From positions 1 to 37,693 of the IMG/VR virus record IMGVR_UViG_3300030450_002819: a stretch of DNA of 37,693 nucleotides; one strand, written 5' to 3'. Positions within the stretch are counted from its first letter, which is position 1. Every line of letters starts with the position of its first letter. This DNA is from a virus. The notes under the pieces were generated by a model that was not told the origin of the DNA, did no database searches, and saw nothing but the letters and a program-made list of their open reading frames with translations. A program made the position numbers and the translations under genes. Below are positions 8,456 to 21,682 of the stretch, piece after piece.

Positions 8456-8470
8456 ATTCAATACCAATTG

Positions 8471-8640: not shown

Positions 8641-8646
8641 GGTAGG

Positions 8647-8868: not shown

Positions 8869-8870
8869 GA

Positions 8871-9059: not shown

Positions 9060-9079
9060 TGATTGTCTCCATGTGAATT

Positions 9080-9295
9080 CGAGGCTCCCCTCGTTTTGTT
9101 TAGGGATGTTATCCCCTCCACCCACGGACAAGGGCGGCTTGCAAACAACTGGAGAACTACTCCAGATTTACCTCGGTATCAGAGGTGATTCCTAGCGGTG
9201 CGGGGGATTACGTGTTGCCCCCATCGTGGACCGCCTTGCCTAAGGGATTGATACGTGCCTGGAGGCCCAGGACCACGGATGAAATTTAATTCATC
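9080..9295 (-). ncRNA. Seven-hairpin structured 5' leader or ncRNA
   Basis: Minus-strand transcript from the promoter at 9303-9331. Pairings (plus coordinates): 9278-9283/9290-9295; 9258-9262/9267-9271; closing helix 9129-9133 and 9135-9137 with 9231-9238; inside it 9202-9206/9218-9222, 9170-9174/9182-9186 and 9149-9154/9160-9165; then 9103-9107/9111-9115 and 9080-9084/9089-9093. CCACGG occurs twice (9122-9127, 9273-9278), and either copy can pair with CGTGG at 9225-9229, giving mutually exclusive folds. No ORF fills it. It ends just before the start of the 62-aa gene, so it may be a cis-regulatory leader. Confidence 0.6.
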
Positions 9296-9302
9296 TGTAT
9301 AC

Positions 9303-9331
9303 AGTATACCATTACCGTTAAGGAACAGCAA
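9303..9331 (-). promoter_or_regulatory. Sigma-70-type promoter of the structured leader
   Basis: Minus strand: -35 TTGCTG (9326-9331), 17-nt spacer, -10 TATACT (9303-9308); expected start near 9296. The spacer side carries GTTCCTTAACGGTAAT (9311-9326), two mismatches from the recurring box. Confidence 0.75.
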
Positions 9332-9352
9332 TGGGAAGAACCGTACAAACAG

Positions 9353-9373
9353 AGAGGGCCCCTTTCGAGGCCC
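9353..9373 (-). terminator. Probable terminator after the 40-aa gene
   Basis: GC-rich hairpin GGGCC (9356-9360) with GGCCC (9369-9373), 5 nt past the stop of the small gene; the following minus-strand sequence (TCTCTGTTTGT) is T-rich but interrupted. It separates the 40-aa unit from the next promoter at 9331. Confidence 0.5.
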
Positions 9374-9378
9374 CTGGG

Positions 9379-9501
9379 TTATTTAAGCTTTTTAGGCTCG
9401 TTTGATTCCTTGAGAAGCTTGTCTGTCTCTCTCAGTTGTCTTGCATCAGATTGAGCAAGTTGTCTGAGCTTTGCGCGAAGTGCGTCAGCAAGTACGCCCA
9501 T
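9379..9501 (-). CDS. Small basic helical protein, 40 aa
   Basis: Starts MGVLADALRAKLRQLAQSDA and ends KKLK; predicted all-helical and amphipathic. GGAG lies 6-9 nt upstream of the ATG, and the 13-nt block AATTCACATGGAG (plus 9508-9520) is identical to that before the 62-aa gene (plus 9067-9079). A strong promoter (9542-9570) lies upstream and a hairpin follows, so it is a stand-alone transcription unit. Function unknown; a small early regulator is one possibility. Confidence 0.65.
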   Translation of the reverse strand: MGVLADALRAKLRQLAQSDARQLRETDKLLKESNEPKKLK

Positions 9502-9541
9502 AAGTGACTCCATGTGAATTAGGCCCTCCGGCCATTCATTC

Positions 9542-9570
9542 AGTATACCGAGGGGTAATATTTAAGTCAA
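9542..9570 (-). promoter_or_regulatory. Strong sigma-70 promoter with AGGGGTAAT box in the spacer
   Basis: Minus strand TTGACT (9565-9570), 17-nt spacer, TATACT (9542-9547), close to consensus. The spacer contains ATTACCCCT (AGGGGTAAT on the plus strand, 9551-9559), where a bound protein would block RNA polymerase. It drives the 40-aa gene. Confidence 0.8.
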
Positions 9571-9578
9571 TGAAAATT

Positions 9579-9809
9579 CTAAGATTCCCCTCTTCTCTTC
9601 CTAATAAATAATTTGAGCTCTTCTATTCTCTCCAGGGCCCTTTTGACTTCTTCTGAATCTTCGCGACAAAGATGAGCAAAGGGTGTCTCTTCTTCTGTAG
9701 GAAATCTTAGAGAGATACTCTCCCTTACAGATCTACGACCTCCGAAGGAAGTAACTGGAGTTGAATAAGCAGTTTCATCTTCTGCTATGGCACGTTGTCT
9801 TTTAGTCAT
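9579..9809 (-). CDS. Hypothetical protein, 76 aa
   Basis: Charged protein; the N-terminal half is Arg/Ser/Thr-rich and the C-terminal half (EDSEEVKRALERIEELKLFIR) is a helix. No domain recognised. It overlaps the stop of the 75-aa gene before it by 4 nt (ATGA), showing coupled translation in the early operon. Confidence 0.6.
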   Translation of the reverse strand: MTKRQRAIAEDETAYSTPVTSFGGRRSVRESISLRFPTEEETPFAHLCREDSEEVKRALERIEELKLFIRKRRGES

Positions 9810-10033
9810 GAGATCAGACTGAGGACATTTTGGCCATGAATAGACGGAGTTTTCAAATCATCCCAGAGTACGGAATAGTAATAAACCGTATGCCCCCTTT
9901 TCTCTTTCCTTGCAAAAGCCTCAAGGACTGTTCCTACTCTTTGAGGTAGAGAGTTGTCTCCACCAAGTTTCTGTTTCTTTACGCGGTCATCAGCGTTAAA
10001 CCTTTGACCAACTATCTTTCTTACTTGTGCCAT
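9806..10033 (-). CDS. Small SH3/KOW-like protein, 75 aa (unassigned)
   Basis: A basic N-terminus, then RVGTVLEAFARKEKRGHTVY and YSVLWDD: the GTV...Y-x-VLWDD pattern resembles small beta-barrel (SH3-like) domains of phage proteins that describe binding to DNA or other proteins. The resemblance is weak. ATG 10033 follows a 30-nt gap carrying an AGGGGTAAT copy (10047-10055). Part of the early operon. Confidence 0.6.
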   Translation of the reverse strand: MAQVRKIVGQRFNADDRVKKQKLGGDNSLPQRVGTVLEAFARKEKRGHTVYYYSVLWDDLKTPSIHGQNVLSLIS

Positions 10034-10046
10034 GTTATTGCTAGGG

Positions 10047-10055
10047 AGGGGTAAT
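10047..10055. promoter_or_regulatory. AGGGGTAAT box between early genes
   Basis: Exact AGGGGTAAT on the plus strand in the short gap between the excisionase-like gene and the 75-aa gene. No convincing -10/-35 pair is visible, so it may be an operator or an internal control point. Confidence 0.4.
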
Positions 10056-10063
10056 AGTTGGAA

Positions 10064-10291
10064 TTAAGCCATTTGCCTTAAGGCATTTTTATGAGGTTGC
10101 AATAAAGTCTTCTCCACTTTCACTAAATCCCAAAGTCTTTGACTGCGTGGATTAGATGGATTCTTAAGCCTATAATGTGTTCCTTGCTTGAATAATGGAT
10201 AACTCATTTCCAGTCTGCTCCTACCAATTTTGAGTCGTTCGCACAATTGACTTTTAGTAAGCCATTCTTTATGGGTTGCTGTTGTAGTCAT
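10064..10291 (-). CDS. Excisionase-like winged-helix DNA-binding protein
   Basis: 75 aa. EWLTKSQLCERLKIGRSRLE is a helix-turn-helix of the MerR/excisionase kind (W-L-T-x-x-x-L-x-x-x-L-x-I-x-R), followed by a wing-like segment (FKQGTHYRLKN...RLWDLVKVE). Small proteins like this act as recombination directionality factors (Xis) for tyrosine integrases, which fits the integrase and attP at 20-21.7 kb. A general transcription regulator is the alternative. It overlaps the stop of the preceding gene (ATGA). Confidence 0.6.
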   Translation of the reverse strand: MTTTATHKEWLTKSQLCERLKIGRSRLEMSYPLFKQGTHYRLKNPSNPRSQRLWDLVKVEKTLLQPHKNALRQMA

Positions 10292-10542
10292 CGGCCTTTG
10301 AGTTGGAGGATTTTAATTTTTAATGCTTTGGGATATCGATTAAGAGCAAACCTTCTAGCTTCTTTTGCTGAGCTGGCCGGTATCCAATCTTTCATAGGTC
10401 TAGTTTCATCTGCAAATGTAATTAACATTAGAAACTTTTTTGCATTCACTAGATCTGTTCTGCTTGTACCAACGCCTAATTTTGCATCAGGGTCAATCTT
10501 TGCAATCATTGCTTTATAAGGTTTGTCTCTTTTAAAGCTCAT
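10288..10542 (-). CDS. Hypothetical protein, 84 aa
   Basis: Basic small protein (MSFKRDKPYKAMIAKIDPDA...) with the segment WIPASSAKEARRFALNRYP in its C-terminal half, suggestive of an alpha/beta fold. No family recognised. Both ends overlap neighbouring genes by ATGA, so it is a well-supported member of the early operon. Confidence 0.6.
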   Translation of the reverse strand: MSFKRDKPYKAMIAKIDPDAKLGVGTSRTDLVNAKKFLMLITFADETRPMKDWIPASSAKEARRFALNRYPKALKIKILQLKGR

Positions 10543-10691
10543 TGATCTAGAGGTGGATATCTACTCGAATTGGTGTAGTAGATTCTTTCAAGTCTGTCCA
10601 GTCTGGTGGATACCTCGTTAAGTTTTGCCAGGCAGTAGTCAAGCTTTTCTGAGTCAGATAAAGGTTCCATTTCATTATTTTCGTGACCCAT
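10539..10691 (-). CDS. Small coiled-coil protein, 50 aa
   Basis: Begins MGHENNEMEPLSDSEKLDYC and continues with a heptad helix (LAKLNEVSTRLDRLERIYY). Its ATG overlaps the stop of the SSB-like gene (TAATG) and its TGA overlaps the next ATG (ATGA), so it exactly fills the gap between two coupled genes. Function unknown; the helix suggests oligomerisation. Confidence 0.65.
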   Translation of the reverse strand: MGHENNEMEPLSDSEKLDYCLAKLNEVSTRLDRLERIYYTNSSRYPPLDQ

Positions 10692-11065
10692 TAGAAAGGT
10701 ATTTCATCATCATCCAAGTCAACTGGTGAAGGAGCTGGTGGTTCTATTTTTTGTGGGTTGATAGTTCCCCAGGCGCCATAGCCGTCTTCATCAAATTGTG
10801 AGACTTTGCCCTTCCCTGCAATTTCAATAACTACTACTTGTATTTCTTGCTTAGAAGCATAGTCATACACTTTACCGTTCTTATGATTAGCTGGATTATC
10901 AGCCTTATTCATTAAATGGGCGCAGAAATCAGGAATAGATTCTAGTGGGATTTTAAAAACTATCCTTTTTGGATTGGGTCCATTTGAATCGTATTTATTG
11001 TCTTGAACTTGCCACCGTATTGGGTGAGTAAGCGCAGGTACAAATTTTTTGAAAGAGTCAGTCAT
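10691..11065 (-). CDS. Single-stranded DNA-binding-like protein
   Basis: 124 aa. The last residues are Pro-rich linker plus SPVDLDDDEIPF, very close to the conserved acidic DDDIPF tip of bacterial SSB, which docks recombination and replication proteins. The N-terminal 90 residues are beta-rich (RIVFKIPLESIPDFC; EIQVVVIEIAGKGKV), as expected for an OB fold, though no SSB motif is obvious. Its place beside ERF, exonuclease and RusA genes supports a role in coating ssDNA during recombination or replication. Confidence 0.7.
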   Translation of the reverse strand: MTDSFKKFVPALTHPIRWQVQDNKYDSNGPNPKRIVFKIPLESIPDFCAHLMNKADNPANHKNGKVYDYASKQEIQVVVIEIAGKGKVSQFDEDGYGAWGTINPQKIEPPAPSPVDLDDDEIPF

Positions 11066-11334
11066 CGAATTTTTTTGATTTGAGGATGGGTTGCAATTAA
11101 AATTTTTAAGGCACTTGATCGGTTCAGATTATTTTCTCTTGCATAGGCATAGAACCGTGTGAATAAACCAGGTTCTAATTTTGCCTGTACTAGAAATTCA
11201 TTGAAATAACTTTCAGGTAAAGAGCCTTCATTATCATTTTTTAAATCTTCTTTTCTTTCATGGGCGTGAGCATTTTGTTTCTTTGTTAACTCCGCCATTT
11301 GTTCGCGGAATTGCTCCGCGTCACTAGTTGTCAT
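11062..11334 (-). CDS. Hypothetical protein, 90 aa
   Basis: ATG 11334 (MTTSDAEQFREQMAELTKKQ) is preferred over an upstream start at 11412 because the latter would lie well inside the preceding gene. Charged and mostly helical; the C-terminal part (YARENNLNRSSALKILIATH) looks like a small helix-turn-helix or ribbon-helix-helix. It overlaps the preceding gene by 11 nt and the SSB-like gene by 4 nt (ATGA). No function assigned. Confidence 0.6.
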   Translation of the reverse strand: MTTSDAEQFREQMAELTKKQNAHAHERKEDLKNDNEGSLPESYFNEFLVQAKLEPGLFTRFYAYARENNLNRSSALKILIATHPQIKKIR

Positions 11335-11557
11335 TTGTAAACCACTCCCCTTTGCCTGCAAGATCCCCTGCATAAAGAAAGGTAAATTTACGAATTTTAA
11401 AAAGCGTTTCAAGTCCTAATTCATCACAATGGAGTATTGATTTGAATTGAGCAAGAAAGTCATGGGCTTCTTCTTTCGTCTTGTATTTGGTGGCATTGTT
11501 AGGAGTGATAACCCATTTAATTCCACTGAGGACTTCATCCAATTTCCCTCCAACATT
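11324..11557 (-). CDS. Hypothetical protein, about 77 aa
   Basis: ATG 11557 has a good Shine-Dalgarno (AGAGGA, 6 nt away). The frame stays open to 11749 and the stretch QTWYCLQSPRGFL just upstream also looks protein-like, so a longer product from a TTG (11629) or ATG (11665) is possible; that would overlap the 81-aa gene more deeply. The sequence KWVITPNNATKYKTKEEAHD suggests a small beta-alpha domain. Not recognised. Confidence 0.55.
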   Translation of the reverse strand, partial: NVGGKLDEVLSGIKWVITPNNATKYKTKEEAHDFLAQFKSILHCDELGLETLFKIRKFTFLYAGDLAGKGEWFTNDN

Positions 11558-11780
11558 CATGAGGAATCCTCTTGGGGATTGGAGGCAATACCAAGTTTGT
11601 TTGATCGGTCTTAATTGCTTTGATAGCAATTCTGATTGTGGCGATATGCTTAACGGTTTGTGCATACCTTCCAAGTTGATCTTTGCCTTTGTATAGGTTA
11701 GCCCTGTCGAGGAGTAATGAAAGGGCGCGTGATAATTCTGCTTTTGCATTGTTTATATGGTCCTCAGGTTCTAGGGTCAT
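11535..11780 (-). CDS. Hypothetical helical protein, 81 aa
   Basis: Begins MTLEPEDHINNAKAELSRAL, mostly helical through residue 60, then a Pro-rich end (LVLPPIPKRIPHECW). Starts 17 nt inside the 3' end of the ERF gene and overlaps the start of the next gene. No family recognised; it may assist recombination given its place right behind ERF. Confidence 0.55.
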   Translation of the reverse strand: MTLEPEDHINNAKAELSRALSLLLDRANLYKGKDQLGRYAQTVKHIATIRIAIKAIKTDQTNLVLPPIPKRIPHECWREIG

Positions 11781-12520
11781 TTTTTTTGTTTAGTAAAGCT
11801 TTGCTGGTTCTTAATTCACGTTCTAAGAAATCTAATTTAGCTGTTTTGTTTAAAGCATCTTTTGAAAATTCTTCTCCAAACTCTTTAGTAAAAGACTCTA
11901 GTATTGCAAGCCCCTTATCAGGATGGCTTTTGTAAAATGTCCTCATGGCTTGTACCATCTTTGCTGCCCTATGCTCTAGCAGATCGTCTATAGATTCTTG
12001 TTCCTTAGGGGTAACACGATTAGGCAAGGGGGGATTCTTTTTCCCCCTAGAGCTGCTTGGTTCATCGTTGACAACATTGCATGATTCTCCATCATCGTCA
12101 TCATTTGCTAAACCATAAGCACCCCATAAAAGATATTTTTTCCCGTAGGTAAGGGCTGATCCAAATGCTTGGCTTTGGTTAGAAGCGCCTTGAATTCTTG
12201 TAGGCAAAGGATACTCACTGATAAGGTCTTCTCCACTTGGTACATGTACAACAGTTAATCGAAGTAAAACAAAATCTTCTCCAACTGGATGAAGTGTTTC
12301 TGTGTGAACAAGGCCAAATCTTGTAGCTTCTTGTACTGCCTTAAGAGTTGATTTCAAGTCTGTATAAGGATTTTTGTGCTGACCTTTTTTTTCTCCAAGG
12401 CCAGCAGCTATTTTGGTTTTTTGAAATTCTAAAAGAGCTTCATAAATTCCTGTAGGCGCTCGCCCTTTTGTTGGTGCTCCTGCCTTAGGAGAATGCGTGA
12501 CTGGATTTGTGATTGTCCAT
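11764..12520 (-). CDS. ERF-family single-strand annealing protein (5' end needs a +1 shift or unusual start)
   Basis: Conserved ERF features are clear: GIYEALLEFQ, NPYTDLKSTLKAVQEA, LISEYPLPTRIQG and SQAFGSALTYGKKYLLWGAY followed by DDDDGE. ERF proteins anneal complementary ssDNA strands in phage recombination, usually with an exonuclease; one is encoded at 14778-15500. The frame is open from 12534 to 11764, yet its first ordinary start (TTG 12357) would delete the conserved GIYEALLEFQ/NPYTDL part. An ATG at 12520, about 10 nt after the predicted transcription start, is in the next frame and meets TAA at 12485-12487 (UCC UAA), where a +1 slip would enter the ERF frame. Non-ATG initiation or a sequence error are alternatives. 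Confidence 0.8.
12000..12015. promoter_or_regulatory. Intragenic copy of GTTCCTTAGGGGTAAT box
   Basis: GTTCCTTAGGGGTAAC inside the ERF gene; its first 15 bases are identical to 15515-15529. No clear promoter accompanies it. Could be an operator or a chance result of coding for TPKEQ. Confidence 0.3.
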
Positions 12521-12536
12521 TTTGCGGTGCCTAATC

Positions 12537-12564
12537 AGTATACCGTTTGATTCTTCCTAAGCAA
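12537..12564 (-). promoter_or_regulatory. Sigma-70-type promoter for ERF operon
   Basis: Minus strand -35 TTGCTT (12559-12564), 16-nt spacer, -10 TATACT (12537-12542). Predicted start near 12530, only about 10 nt before ATG 12520. The -10 context CGGTATACTG is shared with the 9.5- and 15.5-kb promoters. Confidence 0.7.
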
Positions 12565-12591
12565 TACTATTTCGTGATTGTTCTTGATTGA

Positions 12592-12611
12592 GAATGTACA
12601 TTTTTACATTC
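12592..12611. promoter_or_regulatory. Palindromic operator-like site
   Basis: GAATGTA (12592-12598) and TACATTC (12605-12611) form a perfect 7-bp inverted repeat. It lies 28 bp upstream of the ERF promoter -35 and just after the end of the regulator-like gene. No T-run follows on either strand, so a protein-binding site is more likely than a terminator. Confidence 0.45.
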
Positions 12612-12618
12612 GCTTATT

Positions 12619-13347
12619 TTAAGTAGATGCTAACTCATGCAGTCTCTGGTTCTCTCGCTCTAAGGGTGAAATGTCAATCATGTTTTCAGGATCATTCGCT
12701 ATATAACTTAAGCCTGTATAACAGGGACATTCCCCTTTCGCAAGTTCTAGACAAGATAATGCCTCTTCTTTTGTAAGTTCATGAGCACCTCTAAGAATGT
12801 CTTTGCAAACAGTTTGGTAGTCTTTGTTTTTTGGAAAGCCTTTGGTTTTTGCTAATGCTTTCCATGTGTCTTTAGGTGAAAGCATAAGGTCATGGCCTAT
12901 AGCGTTAAAAGTAGTCTCAAGTAATCGGCCATATTTCAAGCAAAATTCATCTGTAAGTTCTTCCTGCTCTTTTGAATATTCTTTAGGAAGGGGAATAAGA
13001 CCTGTGAAAAGACGGAAGAAGTCAGACCCATCAAAGGGTCTCCCGTCATCGTGACAAAAAGGAATACTATCTTTTAGTTTGTCTAATAAAATTCTGTCCT
13101 GAATTTTTTTGAATTTTTTCTCTGCAATTATTTTATTGAAGACACCTAAGGCAATAAAAAAATTAGGTTTTGGGTCAAGCTTTCCGTTTATTGCTGTGCT
13201 GATTTGAGAAGCCCACGGACCTCCTGGTAGGCCAAGGCTTTTTGCTACTTTTTCAGTGATACTTTGGGGCCATTCATTTTTATGGCACCACCTAGAAATG
13301 CCTTTTCCAAAATTAATTCTCTCTGTTGGGAATGTGTGCTTAGTAGA
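12619..13347 (-). CDS. Putative phage transcription regulator (repressor-like)
   Basis: 242 aa from ATG 13347 (MSTKHTFPTERINFGKGISR); a TTG at 13395 is also in frame. Residues 20-60 (WPQSITEKVAKSLGLPGGPW...SQISTAINGKLDPKP) look like a helix-turn-helix in which VAKSLGLPGGPWASQIS would be the recognition region, and this WCHxNxWPQ...LDPKP pattern reminds me of regulators in picocyanobacterial phage/prophage regions. The end (PLERENQRLHEL) may be a short coiled coil. It lies alone behind its own TATACT-type promoter, between ERF and RusA. Lysogeny repressor is a plausible but unproven role. Confidence 0.55.
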   Translation of the reverse strand, partial: STKHTFPTERINFGKGISRWCHKNEWPQSITEKVAKSLGLPGGPWASQISTAINGKLDPKPNFFIALGVFNKIIAEKKFKKIQDRILLDKLKDSIPFCHDDGRPFDGSDFFRLFTGLIPLPKEYSKEQEELTDEFCLKYGRLLETTFNAIGHDLMLSPKDTWKALAKTKGFPKNKDYQTVCKDILRGAHELTKEEALSCLELAKGECPCYTGLSYIANDPENMIDISPLERENQRLHELAST

Positions 13348-13397
13348 CATGGGTTGGATTCTTATAATGGATTTAGCCTCTTGTACCTTTTGCAAAC

Positions 13398-13405
13398 AGT
13401 ATACT
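13398..13405 (-). promoter_or_regulatory. TATACT -10 element ahead of the regulator-like gene
   Basis: AGTATACT is fully palindromic, giving a -10 on either strand. On the minus strand it would start transcription near 13391, about 44 nt before ATG 13347. No good -35 is present at 16-18 bp, so it may need an activator or be an operator. Confidence 0.45.
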
Positions 13406-13458
13406 CTTAATACATAAACTGGCTATAGTGCAACCACGAATAACCCCCGTTTTGTTAG

Positions 13459-13908
13459 TTAAAGATATTTCTCTTCAGAAACAGTAATAATTGAACCTGG
13501 CCTTTCTCCTGCAGAGCAGTAACGTTTTTCATTTAGATTTTTTACTACAAGAGAGTCATCTTTCATTACTGTGCCGCCTGTGCTCTCTGACAAAGCATCA
13601 TAGGTCGAGCGTTCAAGTTTTTCCAAGTCGCCTTTGTTTTTTGCGGTCACATAATAGGGTGCATTCTTTTTTAATATGTTTGCATTCTTGCCAGTTCCAT
13701 AATGCTTTTTTGGCCTAGGAAACAGGAATATAATCTGAACTTTCAAAGGTCCATCTAATGGTTCCCCTTGGTAATCCCTAAGAGCTGCTTCTTTCACGGC
13801 TTCTCTCCAGGGCATTACCCTTTGAGATGCTTCTACAAAATAACCGTTACCAAAACTTTTCTTGCTTCCTTGAGGGGCTGGTATTCCATAAGCTCTAATC
13901 TTGATCAT
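13459..13908 (-). CDS. rusA: RusA-family Holliday junction resolvase
   Basis: 149 aa. Matches RusA along its length: GIPAPQGSKK near the N-terminus, WREAVKEAA, DGPLKVQIIFLFPRPKKHY, then KGDLEKLERSTYDALSE and VMKDDSLVV followed by K-x-Y. The acidic residues of DLEKL and KDD correspond to the metal-binding Asp residues of RusA (usually DxDKL...DD). RusA cuts four-way junctions produced during phage recombination and replication, before packaging. Overlaps the end of the preceding gene by 4 nt (ATGA). Confidence 0.9.
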   Translation of the reverse strand: MIKIRAYGIPAPQGSKKSFGNGYFVEASQRVMPWREAVKEAALRDYQGEPLDGPLKVQIIFLFPRPKKHYGTGKNANILKKNAPYYVTAKNKGDLEKLERSTYDALSESTGGTVMKDDSLVVKNLNEKRYCSAGERPGSIITVSEEKYL

Positions 13909-14108
13909 GGAATATCAAAAAATCCATCGGGCAATTTATTTATATCTCTGTCTAATTTCTCTAAAAAGCGTATCAACTTTTCATGTACTTCTGAACTTGT
14001 CATAGCGTCAGAATTCTTTGATTTATATAGAGCCCAAAGCAAGTAACAAATCTCAAAATTTTCAAACCTGACTAAAGCACTTTTTCTTTCTATGTATTTG
14101 AGCCTCAT
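13905..14108 (-). CDS. Hypothetical protein, 67 aa
   Basis: Basic N-terminus (MRLKYIERKSALVRFENFEI), then a helical region with TSSEVHEKLIRFLEKL. No motif recognised. ATGA overlaps at both ends place it firmly in the early operon between the 131-aa protein and RusA. Confidence 0.6.
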   Translation of the reverse strand: MRLKYIERKSALVRFENFEICYLLWALYKSKNSDAMTSSEVHEKLIRFLEKLDRDINKLPDGFFDIP

Positions 14109-14500
14109 TCCTCAGCCTCAGCAATTATCCATTTGATAATTTCTTTCTCTGTTGCTAGACCTGATTTTTGTTCTTCAATTTGAGCTGCTTTTATTTTGGG
14201 CGAATAAGTCCATCCTATTGAAACTCTTTTTGTAATTAATACATCACCACATTGGAAACGGTTGTCTTCTCCATCTTCAAATTCTTCAAGGCCTGTTTCT
14301 TCATAAATAGTCTTGAGCTTAATCAATAGCTCTTTTTCAATCCTGGTAAATTCCTTTCTTTTGTTCTTAATTTCTAGAAGCTCTTTGGCTAGATCTTCAA
14401 CATTTATCTTCCTTGGTGGCTGAGTCCAAGGACCAAGATTTTTTGAGGTGGTTGAATCTCCATTCTTTTGCTCGTTCGATGTCTTTGTCTGTTGGTTCAT
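14105..14500 (-). CDS. Hypothetical protein with coiled coil, 131 aa
   Basis: Polar N-terminus (MNQQTKTSNEQKNGDSTTSK), a heptad helix at about 35-70 (LAKELLEIKNKRKEFTRIEK), and a beta-rich C-terminal part (FQCGDVLITKRVSIGWTYSP). The helix-then-beta layout resembles small phage proteins next to recombination nucleases, but I do not recognise a family. Its first 104 nt overlap the preceding gene in another frame, so the true start may be later. Confidence 0.55.
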   Translation of the reverse strand: MNQQTKTSNEQKNGDSTTSKNLGPWTQPPRKINVEDLAKELLEIKNKRKEFTRIEKELLIKLKTIYEETGLEEFEDGEDNRFQCGDVLITKRVSIGWTYSPKIKAAQIEEQKSGLATEKEIIKWIIAEAEE

Positions 14501-14576
14501 TGTCAGGAATAAAATCGGGGCAGGTTTCGTTTGGGTATACAGCTTTGGTTCTATTAATCAGGAACCCATAAGGCAT
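14397..14576 (-). CDS. Hypothetical protein, about 59 aa
   Basis: From ATG 14576 (MPYGFLINRTKAVYPNETCP); the frame is open to 14684 but that part lies over the preceding gene. Acidic middle (DNEPTDKDIERAKEW). Reading frame and composition look protein-like, though it overlaps both neighbours, by about 23 and 104 nt. Moderate support only. Confidence 0.4.
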   Translation of the reverse strand: MPYGFLINRTKAVYPNETCPDFIPDNEPTDKDIERAKEWRFNHLKKSWSLDSATKEDKC

Positions 14577-14781
14577 TTCTTCTATTGAATTTGGTTTCGT
14601 GATTGTCACTTGGAAATCCAAAATGTCCGGCCTCTGTTTCAAGAGGTATATGAGGAGGCGGGTTATTGACGAGAGATTCTGCATAAGTAAAAAAAGCTAT
14701 GGCTGGTATGTAAGCAAGAAGCCAGATAAGGATGTTTAGAGGTGGCCTTATTCTGTTCGCCTTAAGTAGGGGTAATCTCAT
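14554..14781 (-). CDS. Small membrane protein, 75 aa
   Basis: Starts with ATGA overlap at the stop of the exonuclease gene. A basic N-terminus is followed by one hydrophobic segment at about 15-38 (LNILIWLLAYIPAIAFFTYA) and a polar C-terminus. An AGGGGTAAT copy (14768-14776) falls in its first codons. A membrane protein in a recombination operon is unexpected; superinfection exclusion is conceivable but nothing in the sequence shows it. Confidence 0.55.
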   Translation of the reverse strand: MRLPLLKANRIRPPLNILIWLLAYIPAIAFFTYAESLVNNPPPHIPLETEAGHFGFPSDNHETKFNRRNALWVPD

Positions 14782-15500
14782 GAGTTAAGATTTTTCTCCA
14801 ATTGAAATTTTTGCCATGCATCAGACCATGCATCAGAACATTTAAGAACACCTTGATTAGGCCCAAGTTTTGTTTCTCCAGGGCGACACCAAAGGGTTCT
14901 TATTTGATCTGGCAAAATCCCACAGTTCTTTTTTAAGAGGTGCATGTAGCCTCCTAATTGAGCATCAGTTGAATATGGTCTTGAGTCTTTGCGGCGTTGA
15001 GTTTTTAAGTCAAATAAAACAAGCTTGCCTTTCCAATAACCAAGAGCATCCAAAGATCCACCAAGTGAAATTTCAGGATCTGCAAGTCTATATTCTGTGG
15101 CTATCGGTTGAAACTCTTTTACGAATTTATGTTCAAGTAGTGGCTTAACCCATTCAGAGAACTCAGGCCAATATCTGATTTCTTGACCTGTTAAATATTG
15201 TTCAAGGGCTAAGTGAATTTCTGGCCCTCTAAATCCCCACTCATCTTTAGTTGATTCAATGCTGTCTTTTGTTGCCTGGTCTTTTGTTGCCCATAAAGTA
15301 GAAGTCACAGTATTCTCCATGACCTTTCCAGAAGGCTCATGAATATAACGGTGTTCTTCTTCGTTAAAAGAAATTGGTTGTGCTTTTAATTTCTTAAGTG
15401 GGCAGACTTCTGACTCTTCCCATGTATTACCTGCAGCAATAGAAGGTTTTTCAGTGGCAGCTGTTAGCGCGTAAGTTTTTTCTGGTTGAGGGTGTTTCAT
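14778..15500 (-). CDS. PD-(D/E)XK exonuclease (recombination)
   Basis: 240 aa. The RecB/Cas4-like nuclease core is visible: H96 with E100, E136 (ATEYRLADPE), D151 (GGSLDALGYWKGKLVLFDLK) and the D164-x-K166 pair, then Q181 in AQLGGYMHLL. Such enzymes resect DNA ends to ssDNA for an annealing protein; the ERF gene at 11.8-12.5 kb is the natural partner, with the SSB-like and RusA genes between and beside them. The predicted transcription start coincides with the ATG, so the mRNA may be leaderless. Confidence 0.85.
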   Translation of the reverse strand: MKHPQPEKTYALTAATEKPSIAAGNTWEESEVCPLKKLKAQPISFNEEEHRYIHEPSGKVMENTVTSTLWATKDQATKDSIESTKDEWGFRGPEIHLALEQYLTGQEIRYWPEFSEWVKPLLEHKFVKEFQPIATEYRLADPEISLGGSLDALGYWKGKLVLFDLKTQRRKDSRPYSTDAQLGGYMHLLKKNCGILPDQIRTLWCRPGETKLGPNQGVLKCSDAWSDAWQKFQLEKNLNS

Positions 15501-15506
15501 AGTTAC

Positions 15507-15534
15507 AGTATACCGTTCCTTAGGGGTAATTCAA
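15507..15534 (-). promoter_or_regulatory. Promoter for exonuclease operon; predicted leaderless mRNA
   Basis: Minus strand -35 TTGAAT (15529-15534), 16-nt spacer, -10 TATACT (15507-15512). The expected +1 is base 15500, the A of the ATG. The spacer is filled by the perfect GTTCCTTAGGGGTAAT box (15515-15530, plus strand). Confidence 0.75.
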
Positions 15535-15893
15535 GCGGCCAAATCTTTGGGACTTGGCGAGGCTTCAACCTTCTCCAAAACCTGCCCAGAGATTGCAAGC
15601 CATTCTTGCCTGTTTGCCTCAATCCATTCTCTACATAAGTTTCTAAATGGTGGCGCCAATGGATAGCTAATGGTTGGCTTTGGGAAAGTGTCATAGCTTT
15701 CTCCTGCTTCATTGAAAGAAGGAACCTTCTGATGTGGGTTTGTGTAATCACAAGGAAGCATTGATTTCACTCTTGATTTTTCTGTTTCTAAATACCCTTT
15801 TGATGGAGTATCAAAATCCTCAACGGTAGCTTTTCCATCAGCAACTAATTTGGCCAAAGTTTTTCCAACTCCTGAGCTAATTAGTTTTTCCAT
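15531..15893 (-). CDS. Hypothetical protein, 120 aa
   Basis: Begins MEKLISSGVGKTLAKLVADG; a helical N-terminus, a Pro-rich middle (PHQKVPSFNEAGESYDTFPK) and a helical segment (RNLCREWIEANRQEWLAISG). Not recognised. Overlaps the preceding gene by 17 nt. Another frame across 15503-15751 is open but has no start signal and looks like a shadow. Confidence 0.6.
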   Translation of the reverse strand: MEKLISSGVGKTLAKLVADGKATVEDFDTPSKGYLETEKSRVKSMLPCDYTNPHQKVPSFNEAGESYDTFPKPTISYPLAPPFRNLCREWIEANRQEWLAISGQVLEKVEASPSPKDLAA

Positions 15894-16242
15894 TTTTCTC
15901 CTCTAATTCTTTTACTCTTTTTGTTAGGGCCTTAAGTTTGTCAATTAGCTTGTCACTAATAATTTCGCTGTAATAAGTTTCTTTGCTGTGCTCCTTTTTT
16001 AATTCAATTACGATTGCTTTAGTTATCAGTTGATTCGCAACCATATTCCCAAGAACTGCATACATTTCATGAGCCTTGATGCCTTTCCTGTTATTTAGAG
16101 CGTTGTTGAACTTGTCGAATGTGTGATTAGACCGCTCATGTATTACTTGAAGCAAGTCGTCCAAGCTACTGTCCTTAAGAAGTTCAGCCCATCTTGTCTC
16201 CAATAGACCATGTTGAAGATCTCCAAAATCAATCTGTTCCAT
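15877..16242 (-). CDS. Hypothetical helical protein, 121 aa
   Basis: Acidic N-terminus (MEQIDFGDLQHGLLETRWAE), helical throughout, ending in a Lys/Glu coiled coil (KLKALTKRVKELEEKNGK). Its ATG overlaps the stop of the 135-aa gene (TAATG). In this operon position it may be a replication or loader accessory factor, but there is no motif to show it. Confidence 0.6.
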   Translation of the reverse strand: MEQIDFGDLQHGLLETRWAELLKDSSLDDLLQVIHERSNHTFDKFNNALNNRKGIKAHEMYAVLGNMVANQLITKAIVIELKKEHSKETYYSEIISDKLIDKLKALTKRVKELEEKNGKTN

Positions 16243-16649
16243 TAGACCGCGCCCAACTTTGCAAGGACACCTTTGCCTGCTAGTGCAGGTTCTTTCTTTT
16301 GGTCATTGCCTGCTAAGTATGGGCTGATTGGTTGAGGGTTAAATCTATGACCATTAGCCATCCGTTCACTTAGATCATCCTTTAAGCCCCAGGTGTAATT
16401 CGGCATCCCATTCTCATTCCTGAATAGGTATCTAAGCATTGCTATGTGCACAGCTAAGTCTTTCGATGGCTTTGGGTCTAGAAGGTATTGGTTGGCTGCG
16501 TAGGCCCACATCTCGTCCGTTACAGAGCTGATAATGATCGGGTCTAGCATTAACCACAATGTGGCCAAGTCATTTTCATCAAGAGTCTTTCCATAAGGAG
16601 AAATCTTGTAAGTAGTTTTTAAAACTTGTGTGAATACTTTTGCTTTCAT
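16242..16649 (-). CDS. Hypothetical protein, 135 aa (possible replication accessory)
   Basis: Helical N-terminal two thirds with the pattern LATLWLMLDPIIISSVTDEM and LLDPKPSKDLAVHIAMLRYL, then a Pro/Asn-rich end. It starts 2 nt after the DNA-binding protein gene. The pairing of a DNA-binding protein with a small helical protein is common for phage replication initiator/loader modules; that reading is inference only. Confidence 0.55.
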   Translation of the reverse strand: MKAKVFTQVLKTTYKISPYGKTLDENDLATLWLMLDPIIISSVTDEMWAYAANQYLLDPKPSKDLAVHIAMLRYLFRNENGMPNYTWGLKDDLSERMANGHRFNPQPISPYLAGNDQKKEPALAGKGVLAKLGAV

Positions 16650-16651
16650 AA

Positions 16652-17167
16652 TTAAAAAAGTTTTTTTGCTTGGTCCATAGCGTCGAAATCCAACCCATTA
16701 GTTGGCTTCCTTTTATGGCCAAAATGAATACAGTTATCAAGCATTATTGATTTCCATTTATTGGCTATAGCTCTTTCTAGTTGATCAATTAAAACACCCT
16801 CACCAAATTCTGTTTGAATACCACCAAGACCTTTAGAACCAACTAATAAAGCCCAAGCTCTTTTACTTTTAGACCCTGCCTTAACACCCCAATATTCATG
16901 AATCAAGTCTTTGTAGTCTTCTAATGGTTGAGGTAAATCAAATGGTTGTTGTTTATTTGGTTGTTCTTTTCTCTTGGTCGTCTCTTTACTTGGTTTCTTA
17001 TTCTCCTTGGTATTCATAGTGGCATACCCGTCAAGTGCGTTCAAAAGGACATCATTTACGAATGACTCCTTGTTATGGTGTGACGGTAGACGAGCATTGA
17101 GTTTTTCCTCTGTTTCGGTGCTTAGCCGTGGTCTATATTTTCTTCTTCGTGTACCTATTGGGTCCAT
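16652..17167 (-). CDS. Putative DNA-binding replication or regulatory protein, 171 aa
   Basis: Basic N-terminus (MDPIGTRRRKYRPRLSTETE) followed by a ribbon-helix-helix-like segment (KLNARLPSHHNKESFVNDVL). A Lys/Pro/Gln-rich linker (52-75) joins a C-terminal helical domain containing LIHEYWGVKAGSKSKRAWAL and LIDQLERAIANKWKSIML. The LI-x-x-YW-x-x-K-x-GSKS-x-x-AW pattern is one I associate with cyanophage proteins near replication genes. First minus-strand gene of this operon, with repeated AGGCACC motifs upstream. Confidence 0.6.
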   Translation of the reverse strand: MDPIGTRRRKYRPRLSTETEEKLNARLPSHHNKESFVNDVLLNALDGYATMNTKENKKPSKETTKRKEQPNKQQPFDLPQPLEDYKDLIHEYWGVKAGSKSKRAWALLVGSKGLGGIQTEFGEGVLIDQLERAIANKWKSIMLDNCIHFGHKRKPTNGLDFDAMDQAKKLF

Positions 17168-17171
17168 GTGT

Positions 17172-17236
17172 GGTGCCTGATTGGTGCCTATTGTGTCCCC
17201 ATTATGCCCCAGGAATGTCCCAGGCGCATTACCCCT
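17172..17236. promoter_or_regulatory. Divergent control region with repeats
   Basis: Direct repeats GGTGCCT (17172-17178 and 17183-17189, 11 bp apart) and CCCAGG (17208-17213 and 17219-17224, again 11 bp apart), then ATTACCCCT (17228-17236, the AGGGGTAAT box on the minus strand). One turn of DNA between copies suits operator half-sites. The region lies between the minus-strand replication operon and the plus-strand 56-aa gene. Confidence 0.5.
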
Positions 17237-17245
17237 CCCGAATGA

Positions 17246-17274
17246 ATATTGATTATTCTTAATACTGTTATACT
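17246..17274 (+). promoter_or_regulatory. Promoter for the 56-aa gene
   Basis: TATACT (17269-17274) on the plus strand; ATATTG lies 17 bp upstream (17246-17251) and a better-looking TTGATT 14 bp upstream. Expected start near 17281, with AAGGAG and ATG following. Confidence 0.55.
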
Positions 17275-17298
17275 TAAATCATCAAAGAAGGAGCCAAC

Positions 17299-17469
17299 AT
17301 GGTGCCCTCCACCGAGCGCTTAAAAAGGCAACTTATTTATTCTGGGGCTGACCCTTTTCAAATTGCTGCAGAAGCCATTGAAAGAGGTGACAGATTATTA
17401 GCTTATATTCAAAGAATTGAATCTGATCTTGTAGATACTTCTCTTCCTATGAATTCAAAATTTTTCTAA
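17299..17469 (+). CDS. Small protein, 56 aa, divergent from the early operon
   Basis: Starts MVPSTERLKRQLIYSGADPF behind a perfect AAGGAG at 5-nt spacing and a TATACT promoter, so expression looks deliberate. Helical (QIAAEAIERGDRLLAYIQRI), no known motif. It converges on the 76-aa gene, overlapping its end by 23 nt. A lone divergently transcribed gene at the head of an early operon, next to operator-like repeats, fits a Cro-like or other small regulator, although no helix-turn-helix is clear. Confidence 0.65.
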   Translation: MVPSTERLKRQLIYSGADPFQIAAEAIERGDRLLAYIQRIESDLVDTSLPMNSKFF

Positions 17470-17677
17470 TTATCGTTACCTTTGCATTTGTATGAGAGCA
17501 TTTTGCAATCTTTGCTAATTCCCTTTTGCTTTTCTTTTTATAGATCTCCCATAGCTGTTCATCATCACATTCCTTCTTCTCTGGTGATCTATAAACAAAG
17601 CCCCACCCCATAGCATCAAGAAACTTTTTAAAATATTTCTTTAGCCGACTTTGCCTTCTGAATCTTATCTTCTTCAT
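17447..17677 (-). CDS. Small basic helix-turn-helix-like protein, 76 aa
   Basis: Very basic N-terminus (MKKIRFRRQSRLKKYFKKFL) and a C-terminal segment KSKRELAKIAKCSHTNAKVT, which reads as a helix-turn-helix (ELAKIAKCSHTNAKVTI). Likely nucleic-acid binding. ATGA overlap with the gene before it. No family assigned. Confidence 0.55.
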   Translation of the reverse strand: MKKIRFRRQSRLKKYFKKFLDAMGWGFVYRSPEKKECDDEQLWEIYKKKSKRELAKIAKCSHTNAKVTIIRKILNS

Positions 17678-17868
17678 TTCTTTCCTTTCTCCTTTCTGCT
17701 TTCTTCTATTACTTTTTCTTTGAGATGACGCTCCTTTAATTCAAGACTGTCTTTCAACATCCATAGCTCATTACTATTACATCTCTCTAATCTTGGCACC
17801 CATGTTTCTCTGAACCATTCAAGGAAATCTGTGATCCGGTCATATTCTTCCTCGGTCATTTCATCCAT
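17674..17868 (-). CDS. Hypothetical charged protein, 64 aa
   Basis: Acidic N-terminus (MDEMTEEEYDRITDFLEWFR), basic coiled-coil C-terminus (LKERHLKEKVIEESRKEKGK). Overlaps both neighbours by 4-8 nt. Function unknown; shape suggests protein-protein interaction. Confidence 0.55.
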   Translation of the reverse strand: MDEMTEEEYDRITDFLEWFRETWVPRLERCNSNELWMLKDSLELKERHLKEKVIEESRKEKGKK

Positions 17869-18070
17869 TTTCTGAAACCGTTATTTGTGTTTCTATTGTG
17901 TATTCTCCCTTCTGGTATTCCTTGCCATCGCAGCCGTCCCTATAGCAGCAAAGATTAGCCCAGCTTAAGCAATGTATGCGTCTTGAATGACCCTTAGGAC
18001 ACTTAATTATTGCGCCTTGACTTCTTAGTCTTGAACCTTTTTCTATGGGAACAAATAACTGTGCTGTCAT
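17861..18070 (-). CDS. Small Cys-rich (zinc ribbon-like) protein, 69 aa
   Basis: Contains CPKGH, then IHCLSWANLCCYRDGC: five Cys plus His residues spaced like a zinc ribbon. ATG 18070 has AGGAAAG upstream and a promoter at 18095-18120, making it the first gene of a three-gene unit (18070-17447). Small zinc-ribbon proteins often bind nucleic acid or RNA polymerase; that role here is inference. Confidence 0.6.
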   Translation of the reverse strand: MTAQLFVPIEKGSRLRSQGAIIKCPKGHSRRIHCLSWANLCCYRDGCDGKEYQKGEYTIETQITVSENG

Positions 18071-18120: not shown

Positions 18121-18161
18121 TATTTTCTTTAGTAACCTAATTTCATCGATTATTGTTCAAC

Positions 18162-18500
18162 GTGCCAAAGAACGGCAAAAAATGGAAGAAAGGTACGAAG
18201 CATGAAGTGACTTCTAGAATCACAGAAGTTTATGGATTGTTGGCCTCTGGTTCATCTAGGCAAGATATAGTTCTTTACTGTGCGGAGAATTTTGATATTT
18301 CTGATAGACAAGTTGATAATTATATTAGTAGAGCTAGAAAGCAAATTGAAAAAGATTGTGAATTGTCTAGGCCTGCTTTCTTAGCTGAATGCATGGCAAG
18401 ACTTAGAACATATGAAAAGGCTGCTATGAAACGAGGTCATATTCAAGTAGCTGTTAATTCTGTACGCCTTCAAGCTGAGCTTATTGGTCTAGCCTCATGA
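18162..18500 (+). CDS. terS: Terminase small subunit
   Basis: 112 aa from GTG 18162; a TTG at 18153 is also possible. The N-terminal part has a DNA-binding helix-turn-helix (GSSRQDIVLYCAENFDISDR then QVDNYISRARKQI), and the C-terminal helices fit TerS oligomerisation. TerS recognises the packaging site and regulates the large subunit. The gene overlaps terL by ATGA, the normal TerS-TerL coupling. Family-level match is by pattern and position. Confidence 0.8.
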   Translation: MPKNGKKWKKGTKHEVTSRITEVYGLLASGSSRQDIVLYCAENFDISDRQVDNYISRARKQIEKDCELSRPAFLAECMARLRTYEKAAMKRGHIQVAVNSVRLQAELIGLAS

Positions 18501-19822
18501 GCCTGATCTTAGATGCTTGCCCTGGTGGTTTGCTCTTGGAACCTCTTGAACCTGCTATTTCAAAATTTGATTTCATAGGTCTTTCAGAGAAATTACATGG
18601 TCAATTAACTGAGCCGCAAAGGTTGGTTTATAACGCTGATGTCAGATTCATTTACTTATGTTCAGGAAGAAGATTTGGAAAGACATATCTAGCCATAACG
18701 CGCTTAATAAATTGGGCAATTGAAAAGCCTGGTGGTTTGTTTTATTACGTGACTGCTACCTATCGGATGGCCAAGCAAATTGCATGGATTCAACTAAAAG
18801 AAATGGTGCCAATGGAGATCTTTGCATCAAAAAACGAGAGTGATTTATCTGTGACTTTGACCAATGGATCAACCATATCTTTGAAAGGAGCAGAAGACCC
18901 AGACAAGCTAAGGGGTGTTTCTTTGAGTGCTTGTGTAATAGATGAAGCGGCGTATGTAAAAGAAGAAGCTTGGTCTATGGTTTTGCGTCCTGCTTTATCA
19001 GATCAGCAAGGCCCTGCTTGGTTCATTACTACACCGGCGGGTTTGAATTGGTTTGCTGAGTCATGGGATGAAGCAGAAGAAGATCCAGATTGTGCAACAT
19101 TTTCTTTCACTACTATCGAAGGTGGCCAGGTCTCAAAAGAAGAAGTTGAAGCAGCAAAAAGGACTTTAGATTCCAGAACTTATAGCCAGGAATATGAGGC
19201 AAGTTTCGTTAATTTGGTTGGGCGCGTTGTACCTGACTTTGATGAAAATAATATCCGCGAGGATGTAAAAGATCTAGGAGGTGAATTGCTTATAGCAGCT
19301 GACTTTAACGTTAGCCCCATGCACTGGGTTGTTTGCCAAAGAGTTGGAGGTGATCAACTTCATGCTATTGATGAGCTTCATATCAAGGAGACTCATACAG
19401 ATGAAGCTTGTTCAGAGTTGCTCAGGCGTTATCCAAATAGAGAAATAAAGGTGTATCCAGATCCAACAGGGAACGCAAGAAAGACGTCAGCTGGTGGAAT
19501 TACTGACCACGGAATTTTAAGGAACAGAGGATTATGGGTAAGCCCAAATAGGAAACCTTATGGCCAGAGTGATAAAAGGAATGCTGTTAATGCCATGATT
19601 CTGGATGCTGAAGGGACAAGGAGATTCTTTATAAGTCCCAAGTGCAAACAGACAATCAAATCACTTAGGAACTTGACCTTTAAGGAAGGAACCAATATGC
19701 CTGATAAAGGAGAATGGGATCATGGATGGGACGCCTTGAGTTATTTAGTTCTTGGTGCTTTCGATAGGGTTAAGCCCTGGAAGTCTGGGAAGGCAAAGGC
19801 AAAGATTGCACAGCTTTGGTAA
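18497..19822 (+). CDS. terL: Terminase large subunit (ATPase and nuclease)
   Basis: 441 aa, usual length. Walker A GRRFGKT at 57-63, Walker B CVIDEAAY at 146-153 with the catalytic Glu, and coupling motif TTPAG at 178-182. The RNase H-like nuclease domain has its acidic residues at D269 (LLIAADFNVSP), E293 (AIDELHI), D322 (YPDPTGN) and D408/D412 (EWDHGWDALSY). TerL pumps DNA into the procapsid through the portal and cuts the concatemer. Unusually, it is about 10 kb from the portal and on the opposite strand. Confidence 0.95.
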   Translation: MSLILDACPGGLLLEPLEPAISKFDFIGLSEKLHGQLTEPQRLVYNADVRFIYLCSGRRFGKTYLAITRLINWAIEKPGGLFYYVTATYRMAKQIAWIQLKEMVPMEIFASKNESDLSVTLTNGSTISLKGAEDPDKLRGVSLSACVIDEAAYVKEEAWSMVLRPALSDQQGPAWFITTPAGLNWFAESWDEAEEDPDCATFSFTTIEGGQVSKEEVEAAKRTLDSRTYSQEYEASFVNLVGRVVPDFDENNIREDVKDLGGELLIAADFNVSPMHWVVCQRVGGDQLHAIDELHIKETHTDEACSELLRRYPNREIKVYPDPTGNARKTSAGGITDHGILRNRGLWVSPNRKPYGQSDKRNAVNAMILDAEGTRRFFISPKCKQTIKSLRNLTFKEGTNMPDKGEWDHGWDALSYLVLGAFDRVKPWKSGKAKAKIAQLW

Positions 19823-19838
19823 TGTACGGTCCTTCCCA

Positions 19839-19867
19839 TTGTGGTTCCTTAGGGTTGGCAGTATACT
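19839..19867 (+). promoter_or_regulatory. Promoter of the 19.9-20.1 kb ncRNA
   Basis: -35 TTGTGG (19839-19844), 17-nt spacer, -10 TATACT (19862-19867), start near 19874. The spacer begins TTCCTTAGGG, part of the recurring box. It lies 16 nt after the terL stop and faces away from it. Confidence 0.7.
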
Positions 19868-19967
19868 GGTAATGTAGCTGGGGGAAGGCAGACGAAGGTC
19901 TAAACAGCACCTCTATAACAGCTGCTGATCTCGGACCGAGAGAGAAGGAAGTCCAAGCTTAAAAGTC

Positions 19968-20057
19968 ATGTTGAGCTTAGATCAAGGAATTGGCCCCGTT
20001 GACTGGGTTAAGGTCAGGGATGAAAGTGGTGCATTAACCGACGCCTTATCAAGTTAG
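19968..20057 (+). CDS. Possible 29-aa peptide inside the ncRNA
   Basis: ATG 19968 to TAG 20057, beginning MLSLDQGIGPVDWVKVRDES. It lacks a Shine-Dalgarno at normal spacing and its end coincides with the GGTGC/GCACC helix. The residue mix is protein-like, so the transcript could be a short mRNA or a dual-function RNA. Low support. Confidence 0.25.
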   Translation: MLSLDQGIGPVDWVKVRDESGALTDALSS

Positions 20058-20070
20058 CACCTTAAAAGAG

Positions 20071-20092
20071 CCTCTATAACAGGGGTTTTTTT
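20071..20092 (+). terminator. Rho-independent terminator of the ncRNA
   Basis: CCTCT (20071-20075) with AGGGG (20081-20085), then seven T (20086-20092). On the minus strand the same hairpin is followed by CTCTTTT, so it may also stop integrase transcription (convergent, stop at 20101). Confidence 0.75.
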
Positions 20093-20100
20093 AATGCTTG

Positions 20101-21420
20101 CTAGTCCTCAGGAAGGATGACAGATGACATAACCCTTTTCCTATATTCCTCTTTAGATACCCAACGCAGATAGTTATTTTTATGAGTTTCTACATCATGG
20201 CCCATAGCTAGAGCTGCCTGGGAAATATCGATGCTTTTAAATCTAGGATCTGTGGCAACTGTTATGGCCCAGGTGTGTCTCAGGTCATAGCATCTAATCT
20301 GTTTTTCTATGCTTTCTGGTTGGTGTTGACCTCTAGCATCGGGAACAGTAGCAAGCCATTCAGGTAAAACGTGACGCAATCTGTCACCAATCCATTCACC
20401 AAGACTTTTGTTGTTCATGCATATTCCTTGATCTGTTGGGTCTTTTGGATTCCATTCCTTTGAAGGGTCATGTTGGCTTACTATTCTTGGCTGTGAGATT
20501 TCATGCAATTGTTGTTGGCATTCTTCAAATCTGTTCTTTAACCCATAGCGCACAACCCAAGATTTATACAAAGGCCAAACCCAATGCTCATATTTAGATT
20601 TCGTTCTCCAAGATCCAGGCACATGAACCCAACCGAATTGAATCCCTTCTTGTATATTTTCGTCTGTTATTTGAGAGATCCAATGAAGTTCATGATTGCG
20701 TAATCCGTAGGTCATGATCATTGCAAGACACCATTGCTCAAGTTTGAACTTTGGCCATAGGGCATCTAAGTATTTTTCAGCTTCTTCCTTGGTTGGTATT
20801 CCTCTGATATCTAATTTCTTTCCACTGGTTAATTTATTTTGCTTGTTTGAAGTTTCTCTGTGAAGTTTCCTAAGGCCATCAATATCTTTTTCAGTCAGCC
20901 AAGTTGGTTCGATCTTGTTTGGGTTTGATGCTCTAAGGGCAAGGTTGATTTGCTTAAGAGAATCAAGTCTATTTCTGCAAGCGCTAGAGCCAAGCTTCTT
21001 AATTGTTACCCAGTTCTGTATAGCATCAAAGTTTCTAGGAATATCATTTCTTTTTAAGTCATTCAATCCACTCCAAAGGTTTGCGGTTGAACCTTCTTTC
21101 ATTCTTAAAGGCCAGTCTTCTTTGCAGGCTTTTTCTACTTCCTGCCAAGTATGGACACTTGCTTTGGTCGTTGTTTCTTCTGCTGTTTTAAGTCCTGACC
21201 ATTCCTTGTCTCCAGTTTGAATGATCGACTGGATTACTTGTTCAATATCTGAATTGACATTATTTAAAAGTGGCTTGCAAGTGATCTTTCTACCAGTGTC
21301 TTTATCTCTTACAAAAATAAAAGGGGTATTAGATGGCTTGCATATAGTCCAGCGGTATCCACCTTGTTTAAGGTCTGAAACGTATTCCTTCCATGATCGT
21401 GGTTTAGAGAGCCTTGGCAC
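20101..21420 (-). CDS. int: Tyrosine-family integrase
   Basis: 439 aa from a GTG directly beside the inner arm-type repeat. The catalytic domain has R241 (TYGLRNHELHW), K274/K276 (SWRTKSKYEHW), the RHxW region CYDLRHTW with R381 and H382, H408 (AMGHD) and nucleophile Y417 (NNYLRW). The usual HxxR has Tyr378 in place of His. The N-terminal ~200 residues hold the arm-binding and core-binding parts. It catalyses site-specific recombination between attP (21568-21614) and a host tRNA gene. It reads away from attP and converges on the ncRNA. Confidence 0.95.
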   Translation of the reverse strand: MPRLSKPRSWKEYVSDLKQGGYRWTICKPSNTPFIFVRDKDTGRKITCKPLLNNVNSDIEQVIQSIIQTGDKEWSGLKTAEETTTKASVHTWQEVEKACKEDWPLRMKEGSTANLWSGLNDLKRNDIPRNFDAIQNWVTIKKLGSSACRNRLDSLKQINLALRASNPNKIEPTWLTEKDIDGLRKLHRETSNKQNKLTSGKKLDIRGIPTKEEAEKYLDALWPKFKLEQWCLAMIMTYGLRNHELHWISQITDENIQEGIQFGWVHVPGSWRTKSKYEHWVWPLYKSWVVRYGLKNRFEECQQQLHEISQPRIVSQHDPSKEWNPKDPTDQGICMNNKSLGEWIGDRLRHVLPEWLATVPDARGQHQPESIEKQIRCYDLRHTWAITVATDPRFKSIDISQAALAMGHDVETHKNNYLRWVSKEEYRKRVMSSVILPED

Positions 21421-21441
21421 TTGTCAAAAAACTTGTCAAAA
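21419..21441. repeat. Integrase arm-type repeat, inner copy
   Basis: Two tandem ACTTGTCAAAA units 12 bp apart, identical over 23 bp to 21660-21682. It overlaps the integrase start codon, so integrase binding could repress its own translation start region or promoter. Confidence 0.6.
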
Positions 21442-21447
21442 ACTGAA

Positions 21448-21488
21448 CCAACTATAGCTTAATCTAGCCAACTATAGCCAACTCTTGC
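21448..21488. repeat. Second set of att-site repeats
   Basis: CCAACTATAGC at 21448-21458 and 21468-21478, then CCAACTCTTGC at 21478-21488, spaced 20 and 10 bp, so on the same DNA face. Likely integrase or excisionase binding sites. Confidence 0.5.
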
Positions 21489-21533
21489 AATGAAGGACAC
21501 AAGGCCTATCTCTTCAAATCCCTTTAAGGCACT

Positions 21534-21555
21534 AAAAAAGCCAGCTACTGCTGGC
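21534..21555 (-). terminator. Terminator just past the tRNA 3' end
   Basis: Minus-strand hairpin GCCAGC/GCTGGC (21540-21545/21550-21555) followed by six T (21539-21534). It sits 12 nt after the tRNA 3' end, so after integration it would terminate the restored host tRNA gene and shield the integrase from tRNA transcription. Confidence 0.75.
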
Positions 21556-21567
21556 CTTCTTGGTTAA

Positions 21568-21614
21568 TGGCGGGGGGGAGATTTGAACTCCCGACCTTCG
21601 GGTTATGAGCCCGA
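21568..21614 (-). other. attP core: 3' half of a tRNA-Met(CAT), initiator type
   Basis: 47 nt on the minus strand equal a tRNA from the anticodon stem to the acceptor end: TCGGG-CTCATAA-CCCGA (anticodon CAT at 21605-21607), variable loop, T-arm GGGAG-TTCAAAT-CTCCC (minus sense), acceptor CCCCGCC plus A. The upstream D-arm and 5' acceptor strand are absent, so this is a fragment, not a gene. Three stacked G:C pairs in the anticodon stem point to initiator tRNA-fMet. Integration here would rebuild the tRNA. Confidence 0.85.
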
Positions 21615-21659
21615 CCTATTTTACTCAACTCCCTTGATAGCATTAGACTGGGTTTTAAG

Positions 21660-21682
21660 ACTTGTCAAAAAACTTGTCAAAA
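21660..21682. repeat. Integrase arm-type repeat, outer copy
   Basis: Same 23 bp as 21419-21441 (two ACTTGTCAAAA units), direct orientation, on the other side of the tRNA core. On the minus strand each unit contains TTGACA; with TAATGC 17 bp on it could also be a weak promoter toward int. Confidence 0.6.

Follow-up and report, generated by a model that had tools for sequence, protein, structure and literature searches.

The window, that is, the whole stretch of DNA analysed here (37,693 bases), is an IMG/VR virus record in which terL and a convergent integrase gene (int) enclose a promoter, a predicted RNA of about 225 nt without a conserved ORF, and an intrinsic terminator. This stretch is hereafter called unit A, and the surrounding genes are arranged as follows.

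105 to 18070, read downwards from 18070, minus strand: early, portal and head genes
18153-19822, plus strand: terS/terL-like genes
18497-19822, plus strand: terL, upstream neighbour of unit A (PHROG 2, E 3e-45)
20101-21420, minus strand: int, convergent neighbour of unit A, related to the integrase of cyanophage PSS2
21419-21682: attP candidate, between int and the tail genes
from 21682, plus strand: neck/tail-type genes (tail operon)

The phage is temperate and marine, and its hosts are probably picocyanobacteria, because cyanophage PSS2 was the sole match of the window integrase among phage records and a 72% relative of this integrase was found on a Prochlorococcus single-cell contig (L033 10001-14407, AG-402-B05). 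On the latter contig the integrase relative adjoins a large open ORF (947 aa) with long internal repeats, and the arrangement of terL and unit A was not found within 10001-14407. Unit A was compared between the window and three marine phage contigs with related terL genes (L002, L003 and L005), giving a sample of four phages, three of which are closely related: the integrases of L002, L003 and L005 are 94-97% identical to one another and show 73-74% amino acid identity to that of the window. The order unit A, antisense int, attP and tail genes is the same in all four phages. The attP candidate of the window contains a tRNA remnant with a CAU anticodon (21574-21633, minus strand), flanked by phage-specific arm repeats, which are 23-nt direct repeats (ACTTGTCAAAAAACTTGTCAAAA); in L002, L003 and L005 the attP repeats have different sequences but are still repeated inside each phage, as integrase arm sites should be. 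Because of this position of attP, between int and the tail operon, integration as a prophage would part promoter A from the tail genes.

The following features were assigned to unit A, all on the plus strand.

19823-19843: conserved upstream promoter block TGTACGGTCCTTCCCATTGTG, a putative activator site that spans the -35 region; identical in L002, L003 and L005
19839-19867: core promoter TTGTGG-17-TATACT (-35-like TTGTGG at 19839-19844, TATACT at 19862-19867)
19845-19853: motif TTCCTTAGG in the promoter spacer
19874-19925: module 1, with a 7-bp outer stem (GUAGCUG/CAGCUGC) and an inner hairpin (AGAC-GAAG-GUCU)
19910-19921 and 20071-20082: copies 1 and 2 of an exact 12-nt repeat, CCTCTATAACAG
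19926-20062: 3' portion of the RNA, specific to the window phage, with a hairpin (AAGCUU..GAGCUU) and a 29-codon ORF
19968-20057: the 29-codon ORF, with an ATG start
20071-20092: intrinsic terminator CCTC-TATAACA-GGGG-T7 (stem CCTC/GGGG)

Promoter A matches 8 of 12 consensus bases and was left unflagged by a simple promoter scan; its credibility comes from a 22-nt block (ATGTACGGTCCTTCCCATTGTG), which is identical at the same locus in the four phages and was matched twice in the window, against no match expected by chance. The block stays identical even in L005, where extra bases lie between terL and the block, and the terL genes of the four phages differ by 10-24% in nucleotides. The distance from CCCATTG to TATACT is 20 nt in all copies, giving the full signature TACGGTnCTTCCCATTG-N20-TATACT, and within IMG/VR the ACGGT-type block followed by N20-TATACT was restricted to the positions of units A and B. 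A TTCC..GG motif is located between the -35 and -10 elements of promoter A. A DNA similarity search with the promoter gave no match in phage records. The promoter-to-terminator unit described preliminarily between terL and int was thus confirmed in its elements, and it is conserved as a unit in the three relatives.

The second match to the block, with one mismatch over its first 17 nt (9345-9329, minus strand), opens the head operon.

9303-9345, minus strand: second copy of the promoter, TACGGTTCTTCCCATTGCT..TATACT, conserved in L025 and L026
9060-9302, minus strand: unit B, the 243-nt untranslated leader of the head operon, structured and conserved

Unit B is 82-85% identical in L025, L026 and L068; in L068, TATACT is retained along with unit B, and the block is missing. 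Its consensus structure comprises 66 pairs with 97.7% of cells paired, and 7 pairs carry double compensatory changes, a number reached by 1 of 500 shuffles and compared with 0-1 in slid controls; unit B is the stronger structured RNA of the two. It ends at the Shine-Dalgarno sequence and start codon (GGAG/ATG) of a small ORF, followed by a second small ORF and the portal gene. In the L025 contig, terL (89%) is located on the opposite strand at the very end, so the layout matches that of the window and the contig is cut before unit A.

The preliminary description placed promoter A in the family of the early-gene promoters and suggested expression in lysogens. The family resemblance holds for TATACT and, in part, for a CCTAAGG-like motif, both found in the early-gene promoters of the window, but not for the distinguishing block, which is absent from them. 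Elsewhere in the window, the block recurs only in the promoter before the head/portal operon (9345-9303, minus strand), which suggests a late lytic class rather than expression in lysogens. The natural inference from this sharing is that promoters A and B belong to one late regulon, and the RNA of unit A is more likely to be made in virus production than in dormant infection. The CCTAAGG-like motif was located next to or inside TATACT promoters at 860 and 31878 (plus strand) and at 12542, 15524, 18112 and 19853 (minus strand), and also inside a 22-nt repeat (TTATGCCTAAGGAATAGTAATG) that precedes the start codon (ATG) of two plus-strand genes (874 and 31892).

Between the conserved promoter and terminator, the RNA interior is a mosaic among the window, L002, L003 and L005. 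Module 1 (52 nt) is common to the window and L002 only, with 92% identity over 51 nt (terL of this pair is 80% identical at the nucleotide level) and the same predicted fold, the two versions differing at one outer pair (U-G versus U-A). In L002, L003 and L005 the rest of the RNA is replaced by module 3, which is absent from the window and is 95-99% identical among the three relatives, compared with 88-90% for terL; this conservation is moderate evidence, since int of the same relatives is itself nearly as similar. Module 3 shows one compensatory change (U-A to C-G), which 182 of 500 shuffles also reach and which is weak when taken by itself, and unit A of L002 has a further 5' insertion. For the 3' half of the window RNA (19926-20062), neither the three relatives nor the phage records searched gave a match, and conservation therefore offers no argument about its function. 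Several hairpins were predicted in unit A, in agreement with the preliminary description; the folding of module 1 stands out somewhat (z -2.19), and the whole unit (228 nt) has unexceptional stability (z -1.17, equalled or bettered by 22 of 200 shuffles).

A search of the whole window against Rfam at the gathering threshold returned only the tRNA-like match at 21574-21633; the phi29-type pRNA family had no match in the window, and a relaxed search (E up to 3) with units A or B from seven loci gave a single hit, far below its gathering score. No DNA similarity to unit A (two versions) or unit B was found in phage records. Unit A of L002 gave only a terminator-sized match of 31 nt in 41 genomes of the Prochlorococcus genus of G008, and unit B gave none in 400 family genomes. 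Pattern searches of IMG/VR were also made; nearly all matches to CAAAAGATAAGCGTAAC belonged to a single motif, apparently coding, in other phages, and those to CAGCACCTCTANAACAGC outside L002 had unrelated surroundings and appear fortuitous. As in a stand-alone phage small RNA gene, unit A has a promoter and a terminator of its own, an ORF that is unconserved, and conservation among relatives.

The reading preferred here, to which we give an even chance of being correct, is that 19823-20092 is a late-class phage unit encoding a terminated modular non-coding RNA, a product in its own right used in lytic growth. It is built on the architecture of the unit, the conservation of its promoter and terminator, its mosaic interior and the promoter held in common with unit B. 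Transcription would start at a regulator-dependent promoter (upstream block and TATACT) and yield an RNA of about 225 nt ending at the intrinsic terminator. This RNA would be non-coding and composed of structured modules that can be exchanged; it would be co-expressed with the head operon, where a promoter of the same type precedes the leader (unit B). We infer late timing and action in trans, the RNA being most likely trans-acting or protein-binding in lytic growth. The terminator would also separate the transcription of terL and int, and its opposite strand could end the convergent int transcript as well.

The terminator pairs form with a probability of about 1.0 and the extended hairpin alone has -12.9 kcal/mol; a terminator with a U-tract is kept in all four phages although its sequence changes (in L002, GCCTCCTTAATCGGAGG). 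The 12-nt repeat reported earlier is real: it is exact at both positions, extends to 22 nt at 82%, and exceeds chance, a longest exact repeat of at least 12 being reached in 2 of 2000 dinucleotide shuffles of unit A. This excess would suit an attenuator in which copy 1 competes for the 3' arm of the terminator and makes termination conditional, as previously proposed, but the competing pairs have a probability of 0.0 at equilibrium, and in L002, where module 1 is retained and the terminator differs in sequence, the repeat is lost; this mechanism is therefore considered extremely unlikely. It is very unlikely, too, that the unit is a small-protein gene with the 29-codon ORF as its product. The ORF is open and begins with ATG, but it has no Shine-Dalgarno sequence at a proper distance and no counterpart in L002, L003 or L005, in which other sequence occupies the region and an 11-codon ORF differs from that of the window; 1-nt indels and module replacement further argue against coding. 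The promoter and terminator are thus kept in relatives where the ORF is not.

The mosaic interior, the weak overall folding and the private 3' half would also be expected if the terL/int spacer were only a terminator region, that is, a relic promoter and degenerate recombining sequence with a function limited to termination; the 22-nt block, identical despite the divergence of terL, and the slower evolution of module 3 than of terL make this quite unlikely. A possible but doubtful alternative is a late leader like that of lambda 6S, in which transcription would stop by default at 20092 and a Q-like antiterminator acting at the spacer would allow readthrough across int, antisense to it, as far as the tail operon (from 21682); int would thereby be silenced during lytic growth as well. 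The common order of unit A, antisense int, attP and tail genes in the four phages fits such a leader, and so does the fact that the same promoter type opens a true leader in unit B. The TTCC..GG motif of promoter A occupies the place, between -35 and -10, that the Q binding element has in late promoters of lambdoid phages (PMC6606751), although this is a resemblance only. No sigma-70-like promoter matching 9 of 12 bases was found on the plus strand between 19870 and 21680, by a scan that misses promoter A too. Several points speak against a 6S-like leader: convergent genes call for a terminator in any case, the model gives no need for the conserved modules within the RNA, and a promoter that escaped recognition may serve the tail operon from near attP. 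No Q homologue was recognised, the early-region proteins being without Pfam hits, which counts weakly because Q proteins are very diverse. Rather unlikely is an extension of this model to a two-arm late regulon, in which each arm would open with a structured RNA (terminated in unit A, unterminated in unit B) and transcription from both would be made termination-resistant by a phage factor that recognises the promoter block and the motif in the spacer; if so, tail expression from promoter A would require excision, because attP of the prophage would lie between the promoter and the tail genes.

Taken as a late, terminated non-coding RNA, unit A was compared with known systems. It resembles the lambda 6S RNA/PR'-tR' late leader in its promoter, RNA of about 200 nt, intrinsic terminator and late genes further on, and in a possible regulator motif between -35 and -10; it differs in that no Q gene was recognised in the window phage, a second arm, under the same promoter, opens with a structured leader that lacks a terminator, and a convergent int separates the terminator from the tail genes. 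Unit B is comparable in outline to HK022 put RNA and other structured leaders of antitermination: it too is a structured RNA located directly where a probable late transcript begins, but it is much longer (243 nt). GOLLD and ROOL are likewise phage-associated structured RNAs, and GOLLD has exchangeable and conserved parts as unit A does, but unit A is far smaller and has no Rfam match. To our knowledge, little is known about late transcription control in temperate picocyanobacterial phages. The promoter signature, present at just two sites, offers a testable handle on such control through a structured capsid-operon leader and a terminated modular RNA, and contributes an RNA family that Rfam does not contain.

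CfrI of cyanophage S-PM2, which is antisense to psbA, is also a non-coding cyanophage RNA of about 225 nt adjoining a mobile-DNA gene (PMC12197685). Unit A differs in being intergenic, and pairing to the int or terL mRNA, suggested in the preliminary description, found no support: neither mRNA has an 11-nt complementary seed, and both a CfrI-like role and an antisense RNA of int or terL were rejected.

In a more distant relative, L004 (terL 81%), the upstream block is absent and the portal gene lies close behind terL on the same strand. Three terminated non-coding stretches, unrelated in sequence, were observed between terL and the portal gene (11323-12300), and two of the three share the terminator GCCGCCTTTACGGGCGGC.
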